DNA from: Microcoleus vaginatus PCC 9802
GTDB lineage: Bacteria > Cyanobacteriota > Cyanobacteriia > Cyanobacteriales > Microcoleaceae
Direction of reading: 5' to 3'
Length of the DNA: 64,000 nucleotides
NCBI GenBank assembly: GCA_022701275.1
Contig: CP031740.1
Span: 1,623,001-1,687,000, forward strand
Positions 14,107-26,650 of this stretch are shown one piece after another. How positions within the stretch are numbered: the stretch's first letter is position 1; each line of letters starts with the position of its first letter. The translations under genes and the position numbers were made by a program. The notes under the pieces were generated by a model. It was not told the origin of the DNA and did not search any database. It saw nothing but the letters and a program-made list of their open reading frames with translations.

Positions 14107-14913
14107 ATGAATGTAACAAAACTGCTCCTACAGCAGGCGGCGCTTAATGTGCTTGTTGCTTTAACAATGGTTCAACCTGGATTGGCAGCGATGCTCGCTG
14201 ATTCATCATCGGGGGAACCGAATTTGCTGCCACAGGTACTCGCATACGAGCCGCCCGCGCGCGGAGCTCCGGGCGATCGCAAAGACGCAGGCAGCCGCGA
14301 TCCTCACAACTTTTTAGCTTTGATTCCCGCTACAAATATAGGGTTGACAGCGATCGCACATCCGACTTTTTGGCTATACTTGCCGGCTTCATTGCCCGAT
14401 AACATTCCCTTTGAGTTTGTGCTGCGCGACGAACAGCAAGAAGTAGTTTTCCGAACAGTTTTTGAGCTAGAAAAAGCAGCGGGAATTGCGAGTTTTTCCT
14501 TGCCGCCCAATTCACCTCCTCTGGAAATTGGCAAGAAGTATCAGTGGTGCTTTTTCTGCGGGAATATCTCCCGCCAGGGGTGGGTTGAGCGGGTGGCAAT
14601 GAAACCAGAAATTTTGGTTCAGCTAGAAACAGCAGCGCTGAGGCAGCGCGTTTTGCTGTTTGCTAAACACGGTTTGTGGTACGAAACTCTCACAGAATTA
14701 GTTGCACTGCGCGGCAAACTGTTGAGCCAATTACACGCAGCTACTTTAGAGGAGAGGCTGCTAATTTATGCTGAAAATGATTTGCGGTATGAAGCGCTAG
14801 CAGAGCTATCTGGATTTGAGAAAATATCTTCTCTGGCGACTTTGGATGCTGACTGGGAGGCTTTATGGGAGCATCCGTTTGTGCGCTTGCACGGGATAGT
14901 TTCACCACCGTAA
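14107..14913 (+). CDS. DUF928 domain protein, exported
   Basis: 268 residues with an N-terminal hydrophobic signal-like segment (MNVTKLLLQQAALNVLVALT). After an Arg/Gly/Pro-rich part, the domain shows LALIPATNIGLTAIAHPTFWLYLP, PFEFVLRDEQQEVVFRTVF and PPLEIGKKYQWCFFCGN, which is the DUF928 pattern of cyanobacteria. It probably acts in the periplasm. DUF928 genes often stand next to CHAT-domain genes; here a LamG-TPR-CHAT gene follows 111 bp downstream on the same strand. No function is known for the domain. Confidence 0.85.
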   Translation: MNVTKLLLQQAALNVLVALTMVQPGLAAMLADSSSGEPNLLPQVLAYEPPARGAPGDRKDAGSRDPHNFLALIPATNIGLTAIAHPTFWLYLPASLPDNIPFEFVLRDEQQEVVFRTVFELEKAAGIASFSLPPNSPPLEIGKKYQWCFFCGNISRQGWVERVAMKPEILVQLETAALRQRVLLFAKHGLWYETLTELVALRGKLLSQLHAATLEERLLIYAENDLRYEALAELSGFEKISSLATLDADWEALWEHPFVRLHGIVSPP

Positions 14914-14916
14914 CAC

Positions 14917-15007
14917 GCAAGATGCCTGTTCCACAAAGAGTAAGTTTTTTTGTGGCCCTTTTCTTAGCCCGCCCATCAGGAACAGGCAAGATGCCTGTTC
15001 CACAAAA
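14917..15007. repeat. Two copies of a GCAAGATGCCTGTTCCACAAA repeat
   Basis: One copy at 14917-14937 and a second at 14986-15007. The second is part of a palindrome, GGAACAGGCAAGATGCCTGTTCC (14979-15001 region). A related palindrome lies at 59594-59626. They sit between the DUF928 and CHAT genes. Confidence 0.75.
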
Positions 15008-15024
15008 ATGAAGTCAACTAAGCC

Positions 15025-18000
15025 ATGAAACACTCGATATTAAGCGTCTATACCACTTTCAATACAGCGCCGATCGCCCATTGGTCATTTGATGAAGCAG
15101 GCAACTTGACGAGCGATCGCCCGGATCTCCCTCCGGCACGCCTAATTGACAGTGTTTCCTGTGCTGTTGAGCCACTCCAAAACGGGCCGCAGCAAAGCCT
15201 CTTGCTGACTGGAGGTTGCGTTACTTTCCCAGTTAGTCCTTTACTGGATATAGGCAAAGAAGACTTTTCTATTTGTGCGTGGATTCGCACGGAAGATTAC
15301 GGAATTGTCAAGATTATCGATAAGCGAATTGAAAATTCTGGCCCTATGCTGGGCTGGTCTTTCTTTATTTATCAAAGCAAAATTAACCTGCAAATAGCGG
15401 ATGAAAAAGGTTGGCTAAACTGTGGTTTAAACCATATAGAAAAAATTCTTCCTTTCCCAGTTGTCAGCGACAATCAATGGCATCACGTTGCGGTTGCTGT
15501 CGATCGCGATCGAGTGGATGGAGGGCGCTGGTATGTCGATGGCAAGGAAGTAGGTTTGCGGTTCAACCCAACACACACACAGGCGTCTCTCAGCAATAGT
15601 GTTCCCCTGACTATTGGCAGACGCTCGGACGATTTGGGGGGCATTTTTCTGGGCAATATTGGGGATATTCGGCTCTACAAACAGGCGCTGTCGGCAGCAG
15701 ATGTGCTGTTGATTTACCGAGCGATTCAGTCTCCTGTTAGTAATAAAATTGTTGTTCCAGATAAAATGAGGAAAATACCAGCAAGACGGCCCCGCGAGAA
15801 AGATTCCTTCCGGGCAGTGCTATATAGTTCCCTGGAAAGATACTCGCAGGCGATCGAATACTATAAGCAGTCGCTAAATATTCATAGAGACACCGGCAAC
15901 TGCTACGGAGAAGCGAAATCTCTGAACTATCTAGGCAATTTTTACACGTTGCGGGGGGACTACTCGCAAGCAATTGACTATCACCAGCAATCGCTAAATA
16001 TGCAGCGAGACACTGGCAACCGCAGCGCGGAAGCTGTTTCCCTAAACGCTTTGGGCAATATTTACGATGCCCTGGGGGAATACTTGCAAGCAATTGAGTG
16101 CCACCAGCAATGCCTAAATATTCAGCGGGAAACCGGCAACCCTCACGGAGAAGCTACTTCCTGGCACAATTTGGGGAGTGCATATCATGCCATCGGGGAA
16201 TACCAGCAGGCGAGCGATTGCCAGCAGCAGTCCCTAGATATGGCGCGAAAACTCAATTCTTGGAATAGAGAAGCGAACTCGTTGAACGTTTTGGGCAATA
16301 CATACGTTTCCCTGGGGCAATATCAACGGGCGATCGAATACTCTCAAGAGTCCCTGACTCTTGCACAGAAAGTCAACAACCGTTATGGGGAAGCGAATTC
16401 CTTGGTGACTCTGGGCAATGCTTACAGTAATTTGGGGAATTACTTGCGGGCGATCGAATTCTACAAACAGTCCTTAGATATTCAGCAGGAAATCGGCGAT
16501 CGCTCTGGGCAAGTTACTTCCTGGCGAAATCTGGGCAATGCTTACCGCTGTTTGGGGCAATGCCAGCGGGCAATCGAATACACCCAGCAGAGTTTAACGA
16601 TCGCGCGATCGATCGGCGAAATGGCGTCTGAAGGGGCAACTCTCAACAATTTAGGACTGGCTTTCTTTGACTTTGGCAAGTTTACAGAAGCTGAAACAGT
16701 CCTCCGCAATGCGATTCAAATTTGGGAATCGCTTCGAGGAAGATTGGGCAAAAACGATAACTTTAAAGTATCTATTTTTGAAACCCAAGCAGCAACTTAC
16801 CGCCACCTGGAAAAAGCCCTGCTCGCCCAGTCAAAAACAGAACAGGCGCTGGAAATTTCCGAGCGGGGGCGGGCGCGGGCTTTTGTGGAGTTACTGACTG
16901 CTCGGTTATCTGCTAATTCAGATGCGATACCCGATATTAAGCCGCCTAACATTGAACAAATTAAACAAATTGCTAAAGCACAAAAGGCAACTTTTGTCGA
17001 ATATTCGATTTCTTTTTTAGAAGAACTTTTTATTTGGGTAATTAAGCCGACGGGCGAAATTGCATTTCGCCAAGTTGACCTCAACTATCAACATACTCCG
17101 CTCAAAGACTTGGTTTCCGACTCTCGCGAGGCGATCGGCATCAGGAATCGCGACTTCAATCCAACCCTAAAAATTGACCCAGGCGATTTAGTTAAACTCC
17201 ACGACGATGCCCCTAATTGGGAACCTTGGCAAGTCATATCTGTTGATGAAACTCACAGAATTCTCTCGCTCTGGCAATCTTCTTTTCCCGAAGGATTGAC
17301 TATTCCCCGACCTGCAATTGATGTAACAGCAAAAGTGCAATCGAGTCGCACCAATCACCCGCGCTTGCAAAAACTCCATCAACTGTTAATCGAACCGATT
17401 GCTGATTTGTTGCCGACAGATCCACAAGCCAGGATTATCTTTATTCCTCAAGGCGAACTATTTTTCGTTCCCTTTCCTGCCCTGCAAGATGCTGCGGGTA
17501 AATTCTTAATTGAAAAACATACTATTCTGACTGCTCCTTCGATTCAAATTCTGGAATTAACCAGCCAAAAACGACAAGAGATTTCTGATGGGGCTGGGGA
17601 CATTCTAGTAGTAGGAAATCCGACTATGCCCGAAGTTGCTCTAGTACCGGGAAAACCCCCGCAGCAGTTATCTGCTTTGCCGCATTCAGAAACCGAAGCT
17701 AACGCGATCGCCCAATTATTCCAAACTCAAGCCCTGACTGGCAAATCCGCTACCAAAGCTGCTGTACTTCAGCGGTTGCCAAACGCCCGCATCGTCCATT
17801 TTGCCACCCACGGATTGCTCGATAACATTCGCGGGCTAGGCAGCGCGATCGCCTTTGCACCCGATCGCACCGATAGCGGTTTGCTGACTGCGGAGGAAAT
17901 TTTGAACCTGCACCTCAACGCGGATTTGGTAGTTTTGAGCGCGTGCAATACCGGCATGGGGCGGATTACCGGCGACGGCGTTATCGGTTTGTCCCGCGCT

Positions 18001-18207
18001 TTAATTTCGGCTGGTACGCCCAGTGTCATTGTGTCTTTGTGGGCGGTGCCGGATGCTCCTACAGCCGATTTGATGGTGAAATTTTATCAAAATCTCGATC
18101 GAACGGGCAACAAAGCTCAAGCCCTGCGAAACGCCATGCTGGAGACAATGCAGCAGCATCCAAATCCCAGAGATTGGGCGGCTTTCACGCTCATCGGCGA
18201 AACATGA
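15025..18207 (+). CDS. LamG-TPR-CHAT protein
   Basis: 1,060 residues. A LamG/concanavalin-like domain covers about residues 18-235 (AHWSFDEAG, FSICAWIRTED, NQWHHVAVAVDRD, GNIGDIRLYKQALSAAD). About eight 40-residue TPR units follow (about 270-620; A(I/S)EYxxQSL.. and GEANSL..LGNAY). The C-terminal CHAT domain (about 640-1060) is caspase-like, with H929 in IVHFATHGLL and C974 in VVLSACNTGMG, so it appears catalytically complete. A segment at about 715-765 (DPGDLVKLHDDAPNWEPWQ) looks like an insertion in the CHAT region. There is no signal peptide. It follows the DUF928 gene. TPR-CHAT proteins are proteases or regulators; the target is unknown. Confidence 0.9.
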   Translation: MKHSILSVYTTFNTAPIAHWSFDEAGNLTSDRPDLPPARLIDSVSCAVEPLQNGPQQSLLLTGGCVTFPVSPLLDIGKEDFSICAWIRTEDYGIVKIIDKRIENSGPMLGWSFFIYQSKINLQIADEKGWLNCGLNHIEKILPFPVVSDNQWHHVAVAVDRDRVDGGRWYVDGKEVGLRFNPTHTQASLSNSVPLTIGRRSDDLGGIFLGNIGDIRLYKQALSAADVLLIYRAIQSPVSNKIVVPDKMRKIPARRPREKDSFRAVLYSSLERYSQAIEYYKQSLNIHRDTGNCYGEAKSLNYLGNFYTLRGDYSQAIDYHQQSLNMQRDTGNRSAEAVSLNALGNIYDALGEYLQAIECHQQCLNIQRETGNPHGEATSWHNLGSAYHAIGEYQQASDCQQQSLDMARKLNSWNREANSLNVLGNTYVSLGQYQRAIEYSQESLTLAQKVNNRYGEANSLVTLGNAYSNLGNYLRAIEFYKQSLDIQQEIGDRSGQVTSWRNLGNAYRCLGQCQRAIEYTQQSLTIARSIGEMASEGATLNNLGLAFFDFGKFTEAETVLRNAIQIWESLRGRLGKNDNFKVSIFETQAATYRHLEKALLAQSKTEQALEISERGRARAFVELLTARLSANSDAIPDIKPPNIEQIKQIAKAQKATFVEYSISFLEELFIWVIKPTGEIAFRQVDLNYQHTPLKDLVSDSREAIGIRNRDFNPTLKIDPGDLVKLHDDAPNWEPWQVISVDETHRILSLWQSSFPEGLTIPRPAIDVTAKVQSSRTNHPRLQKLHQLLIEPIADLLPTDPQARIIFIPQGELFFVPFPALQDAAGKFLIEKHTILTAPSIQILELTSQKRQEISDGAGDILVVGNPTMPEVALVPGKPPQQLSALPHSETEANAIAQLFQTQALTGKSATKAAVLQRLPNARIVHFATHGLLDNIRGLGSAIAFAPDRTDSGLLTAEEILNLHLNADLVVLSACNTGMGRITGDGVIGLSRALISAGTPSVIVSLWAVPDAPTADLMVKFYQNLDRTGNKAQALRNAMLETMQQHPNPRDWAAFTLIGET

Positions 18208-18353
18208 TTGGTTAAATTTTGTAAACAATTGCCAAAACTGCGAAAAAATTAGTCTTTTAGCTGAAAGCTCCACAGAAACTCGATCGTGCCAGGAGCGATA
18301 AGTCATGTGTCGATTTAATTTCTTCAAAAAAGTCACGCTTGCGATTGAAATCC

Positions 18354-18380
18354 GGGCAACCACGGGGGGATTGCCCCTAC
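18354..18380. repeat. Dispersed palindrome GGGCAACCAC..GGATTGCCCCTAC
   Basis: A 27-base imperfect palindrome in the spacer after the CHAT gene. Its near-identical counterpart (reverse orientation) lies inside another CHAT coding sequence at 63167-63194. Confidence 0.75.
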
Positions 18381-18466
18381 TGCACAAACTTTAGTCCACT
18401 CCTAGCGGACTAAACAATAAAGACTGTTTTCATACACTTTCTCGCTTTCCTAACTTTGCACCCTTA

Positions 18467-18600
18467 ATATCGTTTCCGGTTGCATTGGAATAATAAAATC
18501 GAGTCAAAAGTTAACAGTCAACCATTCAGTTTTTCGACCCGCCCGTCAACAGTCAACAGTCAACAGTCAACAATCATTCCGGTGCAACCGGAATTGATAT
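18467..18600. mobile_element. MITE-like palindromic element, copy 1
   Basis: Terminal inverted repeats are ATATCGTTTCCGGTTGCATT at the left and the complement of ATATCAATTCCGGTTGCACC at the right. The left 74 bp match 50662-50735 at 70 positions. The interior holds four GTCAACA heptads. No coding capacity. It lies directly upstream of the first response-regulator gene; the remaining part of 18208-18619 is otherwise gene-free. Confidence 0.75.
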
Positions 18601-18619
18601 AACAATAAAGTCAAAAATT

Positions 18620-19348
18620 ATGACAATATCTGCCGATCGAAAAGCCAAAATTCTGGTTGTAGATGACGACGACTCTATCCGCACTCTCATCTACCGCTTT
18701 CTAAATCAAACATATCAAGTACAATTTGCCGCAGACGGCCAAACTGCTCTCGAAATTTTTGAAGATTTTAACCCAGTCCTTGTCATTTTGGATTGGAATT
18801 TGCCCGATACTACTGGCTATAAACTTTGCCAAGAAATGCAGAAGCGCACTAATGTTTTAGTCGCGATTCTCAGCAGCCGCACCGCCCAAGAAGATCGAAT
18901 TAAAATCATGAAAGCAGGTGCCGATGATTTTATGTGCAAACCCTTCTGTCTTGAAGAATTGGCAGTTAGAGTAGAAGTCTTGTTGAGGCGGGCGAGATCC
19001 GTCACTCCGCCCAACCTTGTATTCGGTCAATTAGCGATCGATTTACTGAGTAGGGAGGTGAGATTGAAGGAGCAAATTCTAACGCTGACAGCCTTAGAAT
19101 TTGAAATATTGTGTTTTTTGGCAACTCATTCGGGTAAAGCTTGCAGCCGCCAACAGCTAATCGAAAAAGTTTGGGGGTGGAAATCCAATTATGGAGCAGA
19201 AGAGCGAGTGGTGGACGTGCATATCGGCCAAATTCGCAGGAAAATGGCTAAAGTTGATGCCGCTGTTCCGAATTTTATTCAAACTGTTCGGGGATACGGT
19301 TACACTTTCGCTCCGATCGCTCGCAGGGACAGGGTAGTTGGTAATTGA
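18620..19348 (+). CDS. OmpR-family response regulator
   Basis: 242 residues. An N-terminal receiver domain (about 10-125) has the acidic pocket in ILVVDDDDSIR, the phosphoacceptor Asp in LVILDWNLPD, Ser in ILSSRT and Lys in MCKPFC. A C-terminal winged-helix DNA-binding domain (about 140-235) shows LTALEFEILCFLATHSG, QLIEKVWGWK and VDVHIGQIRRKM. It is likely a phosphorylation-dependent transcription regulator; no histidine kinase is adjacent. It is closely related to the next gene, so the pair is a tandem duplication. Confidence 0.93.
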   Translation: MTISADRKAKILVVDDDDSIRTLIYRFLNQTYQVQFAADGQTALEIFEDFNPVLVILDWNLPDTTGYKLCQEMQKRTNVLVAILSSRTAQEDRIKIMKAGADDFMCKPFCLEELAVRVEVLLRRARSVTPPNLVFGQLAIDLLSREVRLKEQILTLTALEFEILCFLATHSGKACSRQQLIEKVWGWKSNYGAEERVVDVHIGQIRRKMAKVDAAVPNFIQTVRGYGYTFAPIARRDRVVGN

Positions 19349-19583
19349 ACAATCATCATAATTACGACTGGTTCCTAGATAGAGCGCGCGGACCAGTTAA
19401 TTCGCTATTGTCCCACGCCCTACTCCTCTTTTTAAAGGGAGTAGGGGTTGAGTAGGGGGCAAGCTAAGGGGGCATCTACGGGGAAATAAAACACGCCCTA
19501 TAGGAGATCGAGGGGCTAATCAAAAGACAGCATACCTACTCGATTTTCTAAAGTTTGAACCATTAACAAGAGAGTCAAAAATT

Positions 19584-20315
19584 ATGACGATATCTACCGA
19601 GCAAAATTCCAAAATTCTGGTTGTAGAGAATGACGCCCCCGTCCGTAATTTCATCGACGGCTATCTGAATCAGACATATCAAGTACAATCTGCTGCAGAC
19701 GGAAAAACAGCTTTAGAAATCTTTGAGGAATTTAACCCAGTCCTCGTAATCTTGGATGGCAATTTGCCCGATAAGATCGGCGTTAAACTTTGCGAAGAAA
19801 TGCAGAAACGGAAGAATGTTTTTTTACTCGTGATTTTCAGCAGCGTTACAGGCGAAGAAGCTCGAATTAAAATCATCAAAGCAGGTGTTGATGATTTTAT
19901 CGGCAAACCGTTCAGTTTTGAGGACTTGGCAGTTAGAATAGAAATCTTGTTGAGGGAGATGAAAACCGTCACTCCGCGCAATCTTGTCTTCGGTGAACTA
20001 GGGATCGATTTAATGAGTAGGGAGGTGAGATTGAAAGAGACAACTTTAGCTCTGACGGCCTTAGAATTTCAACTCTTGTATTTTTTGGCAACTTATCCAG
20101 GTAAAGCCTGGAGCCGCCAACAGCTAATCGAAAAAGTTTGGGGATGGAAATGCAATGACGCACGAGACGAGCAAGTGGTGGACGTGTATATCCGTCTGAT
20201 TCGCAGGAAACTGGCTAAAGTCGATTCGGCTGTTCCGAATTTTATTCAAACTACTCACGGATACGGTTACACTTTCGCTCCGATCGATCGCAATAACAAG
20301 GTAGTTTCTAATTGA
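19584..20315 (+). CDS. OmpR-family response regulator, diverged receiver
   Basis: 243 residues, paralogous to the gene at 18620 across the whole length. The receiver keeps the phosphoacceptor Asp (LVILDGNLPD), Ser (FSSVT) and Lys (IGKPFS), but the acidic pocket reads VVENDAP where the copy upstream has VVDDDDS. The position equal to CheY Asp13 is therefore Asn, which should weaken Mg2+ binding. The winged helix is intact (LTALEFQLLYFLATYPG, VDVYIRLIRRKL). It may signal without phosphorylation or act as a partner of the first regulator. 235 bp separate the two genes. Confidence 0.92.
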   Translation: MTISTEQNSKILVVENDAPVRNFIDGYLNQTYQVQSAADGKTALEIFEEFNPVLVILDGNLPDKIGVKLCEEMQKRKNVFLLVIFSSVTGEEARIKIIKAGVDDFIGKPFSFEDLAVRIEILLREMKTVTPRNLVFGELGIDLMSREVRLKETTLALTALEFQLLYFLATYPGKAWSRQQLIEKVWGWKCNDARDEQVVDVYIRLIRRKLAKVDSAVPNFIQTTHGYGYTFAPIDRNNKVVSN

Positions 20316-20459
20316 ATAGCCTGGGGAGGGTGAAGCATTTGGGCATAAAATCAAAGGTGGGAAACATGAATTGTCGCCCAAATGCTCCACCTCTACATCT
20401 CTCGAATGGCTTGAGATTATTGCTTGGCGATGTCATCTAACGATTGCCAATTGATATTG

Positions 20460-22775
20460 TCATTTCGGCCGAAAAGTAAAAACGATCGCAATTACACCCG
20501 CTGCTACCATTGCCAAAGCTGAGGGTACCAAAGGCACCCACCAGCCCCCGATTAGCAAAAACCAGCAAACCCCGCACAAAATCCCCGCAGATCCGATCGC
20601 CCCCGACACCACGTGCAGCCTGCGTCGGCTGACAATCGCGATCGCGCTACCAACTGCTGCCCAACCCACAATCCACAGCATTTGGGCCCATTCAGGAGCA
20701 ATTTGCAGCAGCGGGCGCCGATCCAAAACAGCGCTGATAATTTGACTCGACATTTGCGCTTGAATTAACACCCCCGGCATTTTCTGGGAAGGTGATTCTC
20801 CCGCACTGTAGGGCGTCAAAAAATAATCTGGATTGGAAATCGGCGCCGTCACGCCAATAAATATAATTCGGTCTTTTATCAAATTGGGATTGACTTTTTC
20901 TTCTAACAGTTCCGCCAGCATGACTCGGCGAACAAAATTTTTGGGTTGTCGGTAATTGAGCATCATTTGAAAACCGCGCTCGTCCAAGTTGTGATAAGCG
21001 CCTGTACTGCCGTGAATCGGTGCAAAAACTGCATTGCCCAGCCTTATCTTATCTCTGGGAAGAGATTCCGCTTTGATGCCTTTTGCTGCTAGGTAATGGA
21101 GGGCAGCCCTCGCGCTCAAAGAGTGCTCTGTAGTACAAGGATCGCTGCTGTGCGGCTGCATAAACAGCAAGTGGCGGCGGAGAATGCCGTCGGGATCTGC
21201 CACCACATCGCTGAACCCGAGGCGCTCTTTTGGCAGTGCGGGCGGCGGTTTGATGCCGCATTTGTTGGGTTTGCCGGTTTCTTTGACGCTGCACAAACCA
21301 ATTAAATTTCGATCGCCCTGAAAGCGAGCGGCTAATGCTGCATAACCGGGTTGTAAAGGGCGATCGCGGAAGATATCCAGGGCGATCGTTTGCGCCCCAT
21401 ACTGTGCCAATTTTCCCACTGCTTTTGCGATCGTCGCATCCGGCAGCGGAAAGCCGTATTTGTTGATATCCCTTTCCGTCGCCTCCACCACCAGCAAACG
21501 CGAGTCTGAGCTTTCAGCAGGACGCAGCCGCATCAGTTGGTCAAAAGCTTGCAATTCCCATATCTGGAGCAAGCCCAGCGATCTCGCTCCCATGACAGAA
21601 ACAGCAGCAGTTGCGATCGCCAACAGCCCGACCTGAAAGCGGCGCAGCCGAGATAAAGATGGCGGATTGCTGACAGTTTCCGGCTCGGCTTTGTGCAGCA
21701 ACTCTTGCCAAGTTGGCGGCTTGGATGCCGGATTTTGACAAATAATCGGCAGCCAATCCGCACCGGGAATTTCTGACCCTAATTCTGCCAATCTTTGCCT
21801 CGCGAGGCGCACTGCCACATACAAAGGTTCCCCGCTGCAAAAAGCTTGGAGAAAATATTTTAAAAAATCTTGGGCAGCTCGATCGGACACGGGTTCCCGC
21901 ATTACGATAGTTTGCGGGAGGCCCAAATCTTCAAGCTGTCGTCCTATTCCCAATCCATCGCAGGAATTCAAAATGGCCAACTGCAAGCCGCTGCTAACCG
22001 CTAGCTTGAAACCGTGTTTCAGTTCTTCTACTGTTAAACTCTCGGTTTGATTGATATAAAATTTACCCGAGCGGCCGTCGCTGCGGGTGGAACTGTGTCC
22101 GGCAAAAAATAAGATATCCCAGCTTTTTTCCCAAAGCTGATCGCCGATTTGGCAGCGGCTTGGTTCTACTAAAAAAGTAACTTCTGCTGAGGGCAATCCT
22201 GCAAGTATAATTCGATCTTGCTCAATATCAATTTTTTGACTGTTTCCCAAAATTGCTAAAATTTTTACGCAGCCTTTAGCGGGATTTCTGTTGGCGATAG
22301 CCGGTTTTTTATAAGTTGCGGGGCTCAAAGCAATTTCGGCTTTCGGGTAGCGCTCAAAAATATCCCAACAGTACCAAGGCAGCCGCCGCAAATCGATGTC
22401 GTCAGTTTTGATTAAAAATCGAATGGTGTCCGACGGCATTAATTGTTCGAGCAATGTTTCTTTGAGTTTGCGAAACGGTTCGGAGTTGAGCCAGCTATTG
22501 ATTTGCTGGCTTAACTGTTCCCGCAACAAGCGGCATTTGGACAACTGTTCCGCACGAGAGTCCTTAATGCTAATTTCGATCGGCTTAATGCGGAAATCTC
22601 CCAAACTGCGGTAGGTTGACTGCCAGCGATCGTAGTGTTCCGCTATTTCGGGTTTCGGAGGCAGGAAGGCTTGGATTTCCACTGCGGGCCACTCTCCTTC
22701 CGCGCCGATTTCCAGAGAAACTCGCACCCCTTTTATCAAGTTATCATCTAGCTTCAAAACAACTAATTTCGGCAT
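20460..22775 (-). CDS. CHAT-CHASE2 transmembrane sensor protein
   Basis: 771 residues from ATG 22775; the frame is open to a TTG at 22871, but MPKLVVLKLDDNL is the usual start of this family. A beta-rich N-terminal part (1-150) precedes a CHAT protease-like domain (about 160-370) with H227 (FFAGHSST) and C272 (AILNSCDGLG). After a membrane helix near 380-405 comes an extracytoplasmic CHASE2 sensor domain (about 410-665; FDQLMRLRPAES, TIALDIFRDRPLQPG, IFIGVTAPI), then three C-terminal membrane helices. It likely links an external signal to cytoplasmic proteolysis. Downstream member of a sigma-like factor, DUF1822, CHAT-CHASE2 row on the minus strand. Confidence 0.88.
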   Translation of the reverse strand: MPKLVVLKLDDNLIKGVRVSLEIGAEGEWPAVEIQAFLPPKPEIAEHYDRWQSTYRSLGDFRIKPIEISIKDSRAEQLSKCRLLREQLSQQINSWLNSEPFRKLKETLLEQLMPSDTIRFLIKTDDIDLRRLPWYCWDIFERYPKAEIALSPATYKKPAIANRNPAKGCVKILAILGNSQKIDIEQDRIILAGLPSAEVTFLVEPSRCQIGDQLWEKSWDILFFAGHSSTRSDGRSGKFYINQTESLTVEELKHGFKLAVSSGLQLAILNSCDGLGIGRQLEDLGLPQTIVMREPVSDRAAQDFLKYFLQAFCSGEPLYVAVRLARQRLAELGSEIPGADWLPIICQNPASKPPTWQELLHKAEPETVSNPPSLSRLRRFQVGLLAIATAAVSVMGARSLGLLQIWELQAFDQLMRLRPAESSDSRLLVVEATERDINKYGFPLPDATIAKAVGKLAQYGAQTIALDIFRDRPLQPGYAALAARFQGDRNLIGLCSVKETGKPNKCGIKPPPALPKERLGFSDVVADPDGILRRHLLFMQPHSSDPCTTEHSLSARAALHYLAAKGIKAESLPRDKIRLGNAVFAPIHGSTGAYHNLDERGFQMMLNYRQPKNFVRRVMLAELLEEKVNPNLIKDRIIFIGVTAPISNPDYFLTPYSAGESPSQKMPGVLIQAQMSSQIISAVLDRRPLLQIAPEWAQMLWIVGWAAVGSAIAIVSRRRLHVVSGAIGSAGILCGVCWFLLIGGWWVPLVPSALAMVAAGVIAIVFTFRPK

Positions 22776-22907
22776 GGCTAACAACTGATAAGCCGAGGCG
22801 CATCTAAATTTTACAGTCACGGCGCGATGAAATTCTTGTGGGCTGGGCATCCTGCCCGCCCGAAAGTTCAATTTCCATGCTGAACAACTTATGGCAAGCG
22901 AGCCGCT

Positions 22908-23903
22908 TTAGGCGGCAAAATTCTCTGCAATACAGAGTTCTTTCAGTTTTACCACAACGCTGAAACATTCTCCGCGATCGGCGGCAAATTCTAGAGTCAT
23001 GTAGCCGTTACCGCTGCCGGCGCAAGCTTCCATGACAGTTTTTCCCTCGCCGTCGATGACTTTCAGAGTCAGATTGAGCGGCAAGCTGTCTGCCCCGCCG
23101 GCGGGATGCACCTGTACTTTAATATTAGTTTCAGTATCGGTTTTTGGTTCGATCGCCACTAGCAAAGCTACCGATCGGGCTGGTTCTCTTACACCCCTCC
23201 ATAAATTAGGTTTTTCTTGAAAACCATCGATGGTTGCGGATGCTTTTTCCGCGATATCTGCTGTCAGATTGATTATCTTGCCCCGCACGACTGCGCTGCT
23301 GTAACGAAAAGCTAAATGAGGTTCTTGTGGCACTAAAATATCTTCTACAGACTGCCAGCCAGCCTCAAAAATATTGTGCAACCACTGGCGCAGTTTTACA
23401 GTTTTTTGGCGGTGCTCCAGACAATCTAAATGTTGGAGAAGTTTGTCAAAACTTTGCAATTTATCAATAGCTAAATCGCCAGCGCTTGCAGTTTTCATAA
23501 ATCCCAGCAAAGTAGCTTCTTGTCGCTTTATATCGATCTCAACTGCTACTAAACCAATGCGATCGTCCGGTATTTCCAACGGAATGTAACAAAACTTGCC
23601 AGACTTCAGAGGTCGGCATTCCAAATGGCCTAGTTGAGTTAATTTCAAGTCTGCTGCATCGGTGTACAGGCGCATGGCCGCGTTCCAACTGTCGCTGGCA
23701 TTCAAGTCTGTGGGAATGTCCATCATTTCCATGTAATCTTTCACTGCACATACAGCTAAAGTGTTGAAATAAACTTGCTCTTTTTTTTCCGGGGATGTCA
23801 CTCCGTCAAGATTTGAAAACTTCTGTGCCAGCCGCATCGCTGCTGCTGTAATGGGTAGGGGAATAGATTTTTCTCTGATATTTTCGATGCTGTTATTCAT
23901 CAC
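22908..23903 (-). CDS. DUF1822 protein
   Basis: 331 residues, soluble. The N-terminal half carries PLPITAAAMRLAQKFSN and EQVYFNTLAVCAVKDYMEMM, then a middle part with RIGLVAVEIDIKRQEATLLGF, which fit DUF1822. The C-terminal part is beta-rich (VALLVAIEPKTDTETNIKVQVHP). Two tandem ATGs start the frame. Its stop is 132 bp before the CHAT-CHASE2 start and its start is 48 bp after the sigma-like gene, so the three are likely an operon. DUF1822 proteins recur with CHASE2/CHAT genes in cyanobacteria; their function is unknown. Confidence 0.85.
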   Translation of the reverse strand: MMNNSIENIREKSIPLPITAAAMRLAQKFSNLDGVTSPEKKEQVYFNTLAVCAVKDYMEMMDIPTDLNASDSWNAAMRLYTDAADLKLTQLGHLECRPLKSGKFCYIPLEIPDDRIGLVAVEIDIKRQEATLLGFMKTASAGDLAIDKLQSFDKLLQHLDCLEHRQKTVKLRQWLHNIFEAGWQSVEDILVPQEPHLAFRYSSAVVRGKIINLTADIAEKASATIDGFQEKPNLWRGVREPARSVALLVAIEPKTDTETNIKVQVHPAGGADSLPLNLTLKVIDGEGKTVMEACAGSGNGYMTLEFAADRGECFSVVVKLKELCIAENFAA

Positions 23904-23951
23904 GGTTTTCCTTTTTGACAGATGTTTTTGAGGACAGGAGTTGTCCTGCCT

Positions 23952-24632
23952 TTATTCCAGATATCCTTGATTTTTGGCAAAATTTCGCAAGCGGGGCAGA
24001 CATTCTCTTTTATAAAAATTGGGGGCGGTTGACGGCGGCAAGTTAAATTCAAGAGCAATGTTTTTCCAGGGAGTCTCCGGGGGAAGACGCCTCAGAATTA
24101 AGGTTTGGCAAGTGACATCGGGGCGTTCTTTGATGTGAACGCTTCTCAATTCCCCCTCCGGATCTGCCCGCACCCATTTTTTTGTCTCTTCTAGGATGGC
24201 TAGCGGACTGTCAGAATAAGTCGGCGGGTTTTCGATATTATTGATCAGGTTAATTTCTGCTGAGTCTTCTGAAATCAACGGTAAATCACGTCTAACTTTT
24301 TCCTGCGTTCGTTCGAGAGTAAAGTCTTTCAGTCGCATCTTGAGATATTTGTCCAACCAAGTAATGACGCTGCCCAGATTGCGATCGTAAGGTTTGTTTG
24401 CGGTGTTCGCTTCGCAAACATTGCGACAAAAATACACCCAAGTTTGCTGTAAAGCATCGTTGTAATGAGGCGTGTCTTCTTGCCAAAGTTTGCCGGATTT
24501 TACAATCAGCCTCACTATCTCGCTGAGTTTTTCTCGCCGCATCAAGCTTTTGGGCGGATGCGAACAGGCTTCAGCAACTAGATGTTGCAGTTGTTGGTTT
24601 AAATTGTTTTCCTTATCGTTGGTGTCGGGCAT
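23952..24632 (-). CDS. Sigma-70-like (ECF-type) factor
   Basis: 226 residues from ATG 24632; the frame extends to 24791, but a consensus AAGGAGG lies 9 bases before this ATG. The middle resembles sigma region 2 (YNDALQQTWVYFCRNVCEA, SVITWLDKYLKMRLKDF) and the C-terminal part resembles a helix-turn-helix region 4 (TPWKNIALEFNLPPSTAPNFYKREC). Sequence identity to classic sigma factors looks low, so it is called sigma-like. It is the first gene of the row with DUF1822 and CHAT-CHASE2, and may control genes in response to that sensor. Confidence 0.75.
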   Translation of the reverse strand: MPDTNDKENNLNQQLQHLVAEACSHPPKSLMRREKLSEIVRLIVKSGKLWQEDTPHYNDALQQTWVYFCRNVCEANTANKPYDRNLGSVITWLDKYLKMRLKDFTLERTQEKVRRDLPLISEDSAEINLINNIENPPTYSDSPLAILEETKKWVRADPEGELRSVHIKERPDVTCQTLILRRLPPETPWKNIALEFNLPPSTAPNFYKRECLPRLRNFAKNQGYLE

Positions 24633-25173: not shown

Positions 25174-26650
25174 ATGTACATAGTACAAATTGCCTCGGAG
25201 TGCGCCCCCGTCATCAAAGCAGGAGGTTTGGGCGACGTAGTTTACGGCTTGAGTCGGGAGTTAGAGAATTCCGGCCACTGCGTCGAGGTTATTCTACCCA
25301 AGTACGACTGCATGAGGTACGACCACATTTGGGGACTTCACGAGGCCTACCGGGATTTGGCTGTGCCCTGGTACGGCGGCGAAATCCTCTGTGATGTCTT
25401 GTGCGGCTGGGTGCACGGGCAGTTGTGTTTTTTCATCGAACCTCGCTCTCAAGATAACTTTTTTAATCGGGGCTGTTATTACGGGTGCAATGACGACAAT
25501 ATGCGGTTTGCATTTTTCAGCAAAGCCGCTTTGGAATTTTTGCTCAGAAGCAACAAGCGTCCCCGATGTGATTCACTGTCATGATTGGCAAACTGGTTTG
25601 GTTCCAGTCATGCTGTTTGAAATTTACAAATACAATTGGATGGAAAATCAGCGAGTCTGCTATACCATTCACAATTTCAAACATCAAGGCATGGGAGGTG
25701 GCGATATTTTGCAAGCCACGGGTTTGAATCGAGATGATTATTATTTTGAGTACGATCGCCTCCGAGATAACTTTAACCCTTTTGCTATCAACTTTATGAA
25801 AGGCGGCATTGTTTACTCGAACTTTGTCACCACGGTTTCGCCACACCACGCCTGGGAAGCTCATATGGGCGAGTTCGGCTACGGTTTGGGCCACACTTTG
25901 CATTTATATCAAGAGAAGTTTCGCGGCGTGCTCAACGGCATTGATTATGATGTGTGGAACCCCGAGAGCGATCGCTACATTCCACAGCACTACACTAAGG
26001 AGGATTTGGCAGGAAAAGCCAAAACTAAAAAAGCTTTGCGCGATCGGCTGTTACTGCGCGATACTGACAAGCCTATTATTACCTTTATCGGTCGTTTGGA
26101 CGACCAAAAAGGCGTTCATCTCGTCCACCATGCAATTTATTACTCTCTGAGTAAGGGAGCACAATTCGTGCTTTTGGGTTCCGCGACGGAAGCGGGAATT
26201 AACGCGCATTTCCAGCATGAAAGACAGTTTTTAAATGATAATCCAGACTGCCATTTAGAGCTAGGTTTTAATGAGGAACTGTCGCACTTAATTTACGCCG
26301 GTGGGGATATGATTGTGGTTCCCAGTAATTACGAACCCTGCGGGCTGACTCAGATGATCGGGTTGAGGTACGGTACTGTTCCTGTGGTGCGGGGAGTGGG
26401 CGGTTTGGTGAATACTGTGTTCGATCGAGATTACGACACCCGCCACCTCCCGGAAGAACGCAACGGTTACGTGTTTTACCAAACAGACTACTCGGCTTTA
26501 GAGTCGGCGCTCGATCGGGCGATCGGATTGTGGTATGACTATCATGATGAATTTGAAAAACTCATGATTCAAGGCATGAATTGTGACAATTCGTGGAAAT
26601 ATCCAGCTAAAGACTATGTGGAAATTTACGACCTAATTCGACACAAATAA
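25174..26650 (+). pseudogene. glgA: Glycogen synthase (GlgA2-like) with a frameshift
   Basis: The N-terminal frame (25174 to about 25563) reads MYIVQIASECAPVIKAGGLG, the GlgA ADP-glucose site, and continues to KAALEFLLRSNKRP. The rest is in another frame (to 26650): DVIHCHDWQTGLVPVM, VCYTIHNFKHQGM, TTVSPHHAWE, FIGRLDDQKGVHL and VPSNYEPCGLTQMIGLRYG. The break falls in a C4 run (25561-25564); deleting one C restores a continuous 491-residue enzyme with all motifs. The start pattern is that of cyanobacterial GlgA2. A sequencing error is quite possible; otherwise this copy is inactive. Confidence 0.85.

Follow-up and report, generated by a model that had tools for sequence, protein, structure and literature searches.

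The closest described relatives of the genes considered here are the 'EACC2-caspase' systems of Kaur, Iyer, Burroughs and Aravind (eLife 2021; PMC8195603). In the part of that article devoted to them, these proteins have a constant N-terminal EACC2, an alpha+beta domain that precedes the caspase-like domain, the caspase domain itself and a variable C-terminus that may include CHASE2. Where TRADD-N is absent, most of their neighbourhoods encode an extracytoplasmic function (ECF) sigma factor together with DUF1822, and the authors propose activation by autoproteolysis, with a response at the level of transcription. A cluster of this architecture lies in Microcoleus vaginatus PCC 9802, at positions 14107–24632 of the 64,000-nt stretch of DNA analysed (the window), where a minus-strand trio encodes a sigma-like protein, a DUF1822 protein and a CHAT-CHASE2 protein, with a DUF928 gene nearby. 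The original prediction saw in this cluster a candidate for an undescribed system; because its architecture and neighbours already stand in that part of PMC8195603, with a nearly identical proposal, it is not undescribed. What appears to be new is DUF928 as an unrecognised exported partner that travels with the sensor half of the CHAT-CHASE2 protein, the trio itself being known but uncharacterised.

The cluster shares with the EACC2-caspase systems, as that part of the article presents them, a CHAT domain with His and Cys, a variable C-terminus that includes CHASE2, and neighbours encoding an ECF sigma factor (weakly scored here) and DUF1822. The sensor-linked, putatively exported DUF928, its preference for the CHASE2-encoding end of the gene and a split pattern of co-divergence are added here. 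The word DUF928 is absent from the main text of PMC8195603 in a full-text search, the supplements lying outside that search. The relevant portion of PMC5587647 notes one cluster, in Nostoc punctiforme, that encodes both a CHASE2 and a DUF928 protein, and refers to a response of the DUF928 protein Sll1891 to acid stress. A general link between DUF928 and CHASE2 was not found in the literature searched, subscription journals and preprints being mostly outside the search. The reading that we tentatively prefer, giving it a little less than an even chance, is a transmembrane signalling module in which DUF928 would be the outside partner of CHASE2, CHASE2 would control CHAT, and CHAT would act via DUF1822 on the sigma factor.

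Three other systems invite comparison. The TPR-CHAT of gRAMP/Craspase is a CHAT protease, a resemblance pointed out in the original prediction, the difference being that the CHAT of the trio is fused to a membrane sensor and not to TPR. No gRAMP was named by Pfam, NCBIfam or PADLOC among the region's seven proteins, on which these were run, the rest of the window being unscanned for gRAMP. ECF sigma/anti-sigma pairs of the RpoE-RseA type use regulated proteolysis and have in common with this cluster a membrane signal, a protease and a sigma factor, sigma-E with RseA also being the top predicted-fold match of the sigma-like protein. Here, in contrast, a cytoplasmic caspase-like protease would be carried on the sensor itself, with DUF1822 in the place of the anti-sigma. 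HetF of Anabaena is likewise a cyanobacterial membrane-bound CHAT protein but is described with one predicted membrane span, TPR and a role in cell division, and the portion of PMC8406250 concerned makes no mention of CHASE2. Orthology with HetF was rejected (NCBIfam NF045509, 16.6 bits against a cut-off of 1200).

The CHAT-CHASE2 protein (20460–22775, minus strand; 771 aa) matches CHASE2 at E 8e-66 and CHAT at E 1.7e-14 in Pfam. Its start was placed at M33 of the longest open reading frame (ORF), and most relatives begin at the equivalent site in an alignment around 'MxKL'. An N-terminal domain, EACC2 by position, is followed by CHAT, a span at 379–403, CHASE2 at about 404–695 and hydrophobic stretches at 696–717 and 719–771. 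Hydropathy places one membrane span ahead of CHASE2 and at least two behind it, some 290 residues apart, so the CHAT half would be cytoplasmic and CHASE2 outside; CHASE2 is described as an outside domain in the pertinent parts of PMC8195603 and PMC5587647. The catalytic pair named in the original prediction is present, as His227/Cys272 in this protein and as His929/Cys974 in the second CHAT protein of the region. It is kept in all 113 CHASE2-bearing proteins of the family of 135 (the window's and two duplicates counted) and in 20 of the 22 that lack CHASE2. A conserved N-terminal region of about 180–200 residues was found with the window's own profile in 55 of 81 sets, these being 80 DUF1822 loci and the window. 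No useful PDB relative of the CHAT-CHASE2 protein was found by sequence.

The association of DUF928 is with CHASE2 and not with CHAT in itself. Pooling of all sets gave 111 distinct CHAT-CHASE2 proteins, the window's included, and in 89 of them DUF928 follows on the same strand, no more than 1.5 kb downstream, against 0/22 CHAT relatives of more than 380 aa without CHASE2 (a figure that excludes pieces under 380 aa, locus L050 among them). When loci centred on DUF1822 are taken alone, DUF928 is found in 20/29 with CHASE2 and in 1/27 without, the sole case among the latter being L050, where a broken piece is followed by a CHASE2 remnant. The 80 DUF1822 loci were made up of about every second row among the matches listed, the window-family rows and the genome's own second copy, and so were not drawn strictly at random. 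Similarity to the CHAT-CHASE2 protein was the sole criterion for a further, independent set, of 78 named cyanobacterial loci. DUF928 lies directly downstream in 63 of these (same strand, within 600 bp) and is commoner than DUF1822 upstream, which lies within 400 bp in 53. Two loci, L113 and L293, each 60,060 bp long, appear to be the identical contig, and L293 enters no pooled count.

A further survey covered 30 genomes chosen for the presence of DUF1822 and for few contigs. The counts use, among the matches listed, 105 of 106 for DUF928 (the second piece of one gene omitted), 150 for CHASE2, of which there are at least that many, and 90 for DUF1822 (about 15 of the weakest omitted). CHASE2 lies within 2 kb of 58 of the 105 DUF928 genes listed, where 0.74 would be expected at random. 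For the DUF1822 genes listed, DUF928 occurs within 6 kb of 16 of the 21 that have CHASE2 within 5 kb and of 1 of the 69 that do not (Fisher p 1.5e-12, with relatedness ignored). Exported-looking genes of 238–242 aa downstream of divergent CHASE2 forms (L101, L112) were rejected as DUF928 candidates (E 0.1–0.9, no Pfam DUF928) and are uncounted. At L203, L210, L223 and L226 DUF928 is found near two-partner-secretion exoproteins, with a CHASE2-histidine kinase and TPR-CHAT also present at L226.

CHASE2 proteins of various outputs were sampled in these genomes, from 36 of the 39 CHASE2 places near DUF928 and away from DUF1822, plus 44 of the 89 without DUF928; as the sample was drawn from two fetched groups, its ratios are indicative only. 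DUF928 adjoins 12/13 histidine kinases, 8/15 cyclases, 2/3 CHAT proteins and 13/23 proteins of unclassified output, against 1/17 Ser/Thr kinases and 0/10 GGDEF proteins. Outside the unclassified group, 112 of 113 cases have it at the end of the gene where CHASE2 is encoded. CHAT proteins, with C-terminal CHASE2, have it downstream in 91/91 of those with one within 1.5 kb (two duplicates included), histidine kinases with N-terminal CHASE2 have it upstream in 12/12 and cyclases in 8/9, and the lone Ser/Thr kinase with DUF928 has a C-terminal CHASE2 and DUF928 downstream. It is possible, though we would hold it with less than balanced confidence, that DUF928 and CHASE2 together make up a single, exchangeable cassette for input. 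Exported DUF928 would then serve a large cyanobacterial class of CHASE2 receptors as co-receptor or as the subunit that binds the ligand, and the cassette would be plugged onto the CHAT protease with its sigma factor, onto histidine kinases and onto adenylate/guanylate-type cyclases, not onto GGDEF proteins.

The same gene could instead encode a surface or secretion accessory for TPR-CHAT proteins and two-partner-secretion exoproteins, co-regulated with CHASE2 modules without contact. Some DUF928 genes do lie beside TPR-CHAT (8/152) or two-partner-secretion exoproteins (3/152) and not CHASE2, and 16 more have none of these. An accessory of this kind is unlikely, given that DUF928 lies mostly on the CHASE2-encoding end, is, among the CHASE2 proteins sampled, absent with GGDEF output and nearly absent with Ser/Thr kinase output, and follows CHASE2 specifically in its divergence.

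The divergence of the neighbours is split between the two halves of the CHAT-CHASE2 protein. At the 37 named loci with both neighbours, partial correlations (r) with the CHASE2 and CHAT halves are 0.71 and 0.32 for DUF928 and, the other way round, 0.28 and 0.75 for DUF1822. At the 21 of these loci that also have the sigma-like gene, the values for CHASE2 and CHAT are 0.82 and 0.24 for DUF928, 0.06 and 0.77 for DUF1822, and 0.08 and 0.50 for the sigma-like protein. Recombination that swapped the 3' half of the gene together with adjacent DNA would yield both this co-divergence and the rule of the gene end with no physical partnership, and DUF928 does border the CHASE2-coding end, with DUF1822 upstream at the CHAT-coding end. 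The loci at which DUF928 has been displaced, by 1.5 to 7 kb and in six of seven to the other strand, speak against it: DUF928 still tracks CHASE2 above CHAT at 7/7, the window included, with partial r of 0.57 and 0.01 in the window and of 0.20 and -0.08 at L067, the weakest. These seven are partly non-independent, the window and L113 being close relatives and L167 and L180 likewise, and the moves may be recent. We consider recombination without partnership very improbable as the whole explanation.

The window's DUF928 gene (14107–14913, plus strand; 268 aa; Pfam PF06051, E 4e-45) is itself one of the displaced copies, 5.5 kb from the CHAT-CHASE2 gene and on the opposite strand. In a tree of 152 DUF928 proteins, those of the window and L113 are nested within DUF928s encoded next to CHAT-CHASE2 genes (support of 81/92/96 in the Shimodaira–Hasegawa-like approximate likelihood ratio test, SH-aLRT), so the window's gene is most likely the displaced mate of its CHAT-CHASE2 gene. 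The grouping of DUF928 with the cluster proved the most informative part of the original prediction. The window's DUF928 protein has a hydrophobic stretch at its N-terminus. By a crude hydropathy criterion an N-terminal hydrophobic stretch is present in 143/152 DUF928 proteins, against 7/153 DUF1822 proteins and 1/63 and 5/67 members of two sigma-like families, and a further membrane-like stretch is found in 1 DUF928 protein of the 152. The AlphaFold2 model (mean predicted local distance difference test score, pLDDT, 75) is a beta-sandwich with core strands at 78–162 followed by helices, and Foldseek matched it to Ig-like domains with low TM-scores. No useful PDB relative of DUF928 was found by sequence.

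Upstream of the CHAT-CHASE2 gene, also on the minus strand, are the DUF1822 gene (22908–23903; 331 aa; PF08852, E 3.3e-55), encoding a candidate adaptor or anti-sigma, and the sigma-like gene (23952–24632; 226 aa from an ATG at 24632, the longest ORF extending to 24791). With the starts chosen, the predicted gaps of 132 and 48 bp hold, and all seven genes of the region lie where the original prediction had placed them, with the domains named. The predicted linkage of sigma-like gene, DUF1822 and CHAT-CHASE2 is conserved across cyanobacteria, beyond chance, as counts of co-occurrence in genomes show. DUF1822 lies within 700 bp upstream of 85/111 distinct CHAT-CHASE2 proteins; 57 of the 111 have both DUF1822 and a sigma-like gene, 28 DUF1822 alone and 26 neither. 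Among the 78 named loci a sigma-like gene lies within 3 kb in 37. DUF1822 is above the cut-off in 180/291 genomes of the window's phylum, and no PDB relative of it was found by sequence. Where it is missing, a common substitute partner was sought and rejected: eight upstream genes examined with Pfam are of mixed identity (two two-partner-secretion exoproteins, HlyD, an ABC transporter, LacI, an FHA-oxidoreductase, a PPIase and a gene that matched nothing) and so point to no shared replacement, no model search having been aimed at TRADD-N.

The sigma-like gene that precedes DUF1822 belongs to one of two families, that of the window's protein or a larger one. Two of three tested members of the larger family pass the Pfam cut-off for sigma region 4, the other having no match, and its profile finds PDB sigma factors at E 5e-10. 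The window's family matches it weakly in a profile comparison (46.6% probability, E 2e-4). The window's protein has no Pfam sigma match; a profile of 32 members of its family run against the PDB places five ECF sigma chains at the top, at E 0.02–0.08. Its AlphaFold2 model (mean pLDDT 80, predicted TM-score, pTM, 0.47) has as best Foldseek match 1or7 (E. coli sigma-E, with RseA) at E 0.039 and probability 0.94, and 13 of the 16 best matches are ECF-type sigma factors, among them AlgU, which we take to be of that type; the rest (9a4r, 9n9q, 9a7s) belong to transcription complexes. None falls below E 0.001, and query TM-scores are at most 0.30.

The larger family also occurs with DUF1822 elsewhere. 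At L034, L035, L037 and L039 the pair is present and no CHAT-CHASE2 gene is among those that follow; DUF1822 may thus partner the larger sigma-like class in general. The Microcoleus genome itself has a second pair, a sigma-like protein of 386 aa and a DUF1822 protein of 287 aa (L033:5036–7059; G000:C1, about 4.20 Mb), after which comes a protein of 344 aa that carries repeated motifs, and no CHAT-CHASE2 gene lies in the stretch read. Two back-to-back DUF1822/CHAT-CHASE2/DUF928 sets lie at L054:4145–14442, with one sigma-like gene seen between.

In the signalling module that we prefer, DUF928 would be exported and would bind, or present a ligand to, the periplasmic CHASE2. CHASE2 would then alter the state of CHAT, the cytoplasmic protease in the same polypeptide chain, and CHAT might cleave itself or DUF1822. 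Cleavage would free or activate the ECF-like sigma factor and so switch on its target genes, the sigma factor being the output where it is present. The export of DUF928, its contact with CHASE2 and the role of DUF1822 as the link between CHAT and sigma are steps that we infer, and regulated proteolysis acting on the sigma branch is plausible.

Several points weigh against this module. Cleavage by CHAT is a conjecture, as is the choice of DUF1822, CHAT-CHASE2 itself or the sigma factor as its target. The sigma factor is not obligatory, a sigma-like gene being found at just 57/111 loci, and its assignment to the ECF class is weak, since profile and fold searches agree but each score is weak. CHASE2 is not the sole context of DUF928: 47 of the 105 DUF928 genes listed in the 30 genomes have no CHASE2 within 2 kb, and DUF928 occurs beside TPR-CHAT and two-partner-secretion genes that lack it. 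Conversely, for 22/111 CHAT-CHASE2 proteins DUF928 is missing within 1.5 kb, a gap that a contig end accounts for in few cases, and at one same-genus locus with an intact CHAT-CHASE2 gene (L292) DUF928 was not found in the 20 kb fetched, of which 3.2 kb is masked. The end rule is broken by proteins of unclassified output with N-terminal CHASE2, where DUF928 on the same strand is downstream in 8 cases and upstream in 2; in four more unclassified cases it is on the opposite strand. Lastly, the co-divergence could be partly due to recombination of neighbouring DNA.

Within the genus the cluster is patchy. Orthologues with 73–80% identity over their length (one with an insertion) occur in 4/17 other genomes, and a 162-residue piece in one more. 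L293 and L294 have the order DUF928, 3.2 kb of N, response regulator, CHAT-CHASE2, DUF1822, sigma-like gene and starch-synthase-type gene. In L291 the contig ends after CHAT-CHASE2. L292 has a full-length CHAT-CHASE2 gene, with the sigma-like and DUF1822 genes each in two pieces. In L295 DUF1822 and the sigma-like gene are kept, CHAT-CHASE2 is cut to its first 162 residues and DUF928 is present over its length in two frames. A joint loss of DUF928 and the sensor in decaying copies was considered and rejected; with a remnant of both in L295 and an intact CHAT-CHASE2 without DUF928 in L292, decay does not show the sensor pair to be lost together.

Such patchiness fits the proposal of Kaur et al., namely a system of immunity or programmed death in which CHAT, triggered by the variable C-terminal sensor, cleaves itself and sigma drives a response to invaders, with DUF928 as a mere frequent neighbour. 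The architecture and neighbours are those given in section 9 of PMC8195603, as far as that section describes them, and 58 plasmid records carry full or partial relatives, 10 covering at least 80% of the protein and 14 predicted to be conjugative. PADLOC, however, has no match for the trio or DUF928, and the phage collection gave none, so the defence role suggested in the original prediction found no positive support. The neighbour is a starch-synthase-type gene, with no visible defence island. DUF928-CHASE2 pairs also occur with kinases and cyclases, which looks like general signalling. A patchy, sometimes plasmid-borne presence fits conflict systems and accessory signalling genes equally, and we place an immune role on the unlikely side.

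The remaining genes of the region are on the plus strand. The LamG-TPR-CHAT protein (15025–18207; 1060 aa) has a Pfam CHAT match of 256 bits and carries the His929/Cys974 pair. At its place L113 and L292–L295 have about 3.2 kb of N (in L295, 0.8 kb), so that its conservation is visible in part only, at the same place in the same-genus locus L295. Two response regulators with OmpR-type output domains by Pfam follow in tandem (18620–19348, whose best NCBIfam match is RpaB, below the cut-off, and its relative at 19584–20315), with 167 identical positions in an alignment of 243. L292, L293 and L294 have a single RpaB-like regulator in place of the pair at 18620–20315, which is probably an expansion in the window's lineage. 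PADLOC models match the LamG-TPR-CHAT protein and the regulators in their TPR or receiver parts only, e.g. SduA at E 1.8e-6. Beside the trio, a starch-synthase-type gene (25174–26650) consists of two overlapping ORFs of 136 and 419 aa in different frames, both matching Glyco_transf_5. A single ORF of 491 aa in L291, L293 and L295 of the same genus makes it apparently a broken gene or a sequencing error. This gene adjoins the cluster in the window and in 4/5 same-genus loci, and was not found in the 20 kb fetched for L292.

To our knowledge, how CHASE2 receptors sense their signal has not been established. If the transmembrane module is correct, the exported partner would provide a direct handle on signal sensing by CHASE2, and a function would be assigned to DUF928. 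The predicted pathway from a bacterial caspase-like protease to a sigma factor would, moreover, become testable from its input side.

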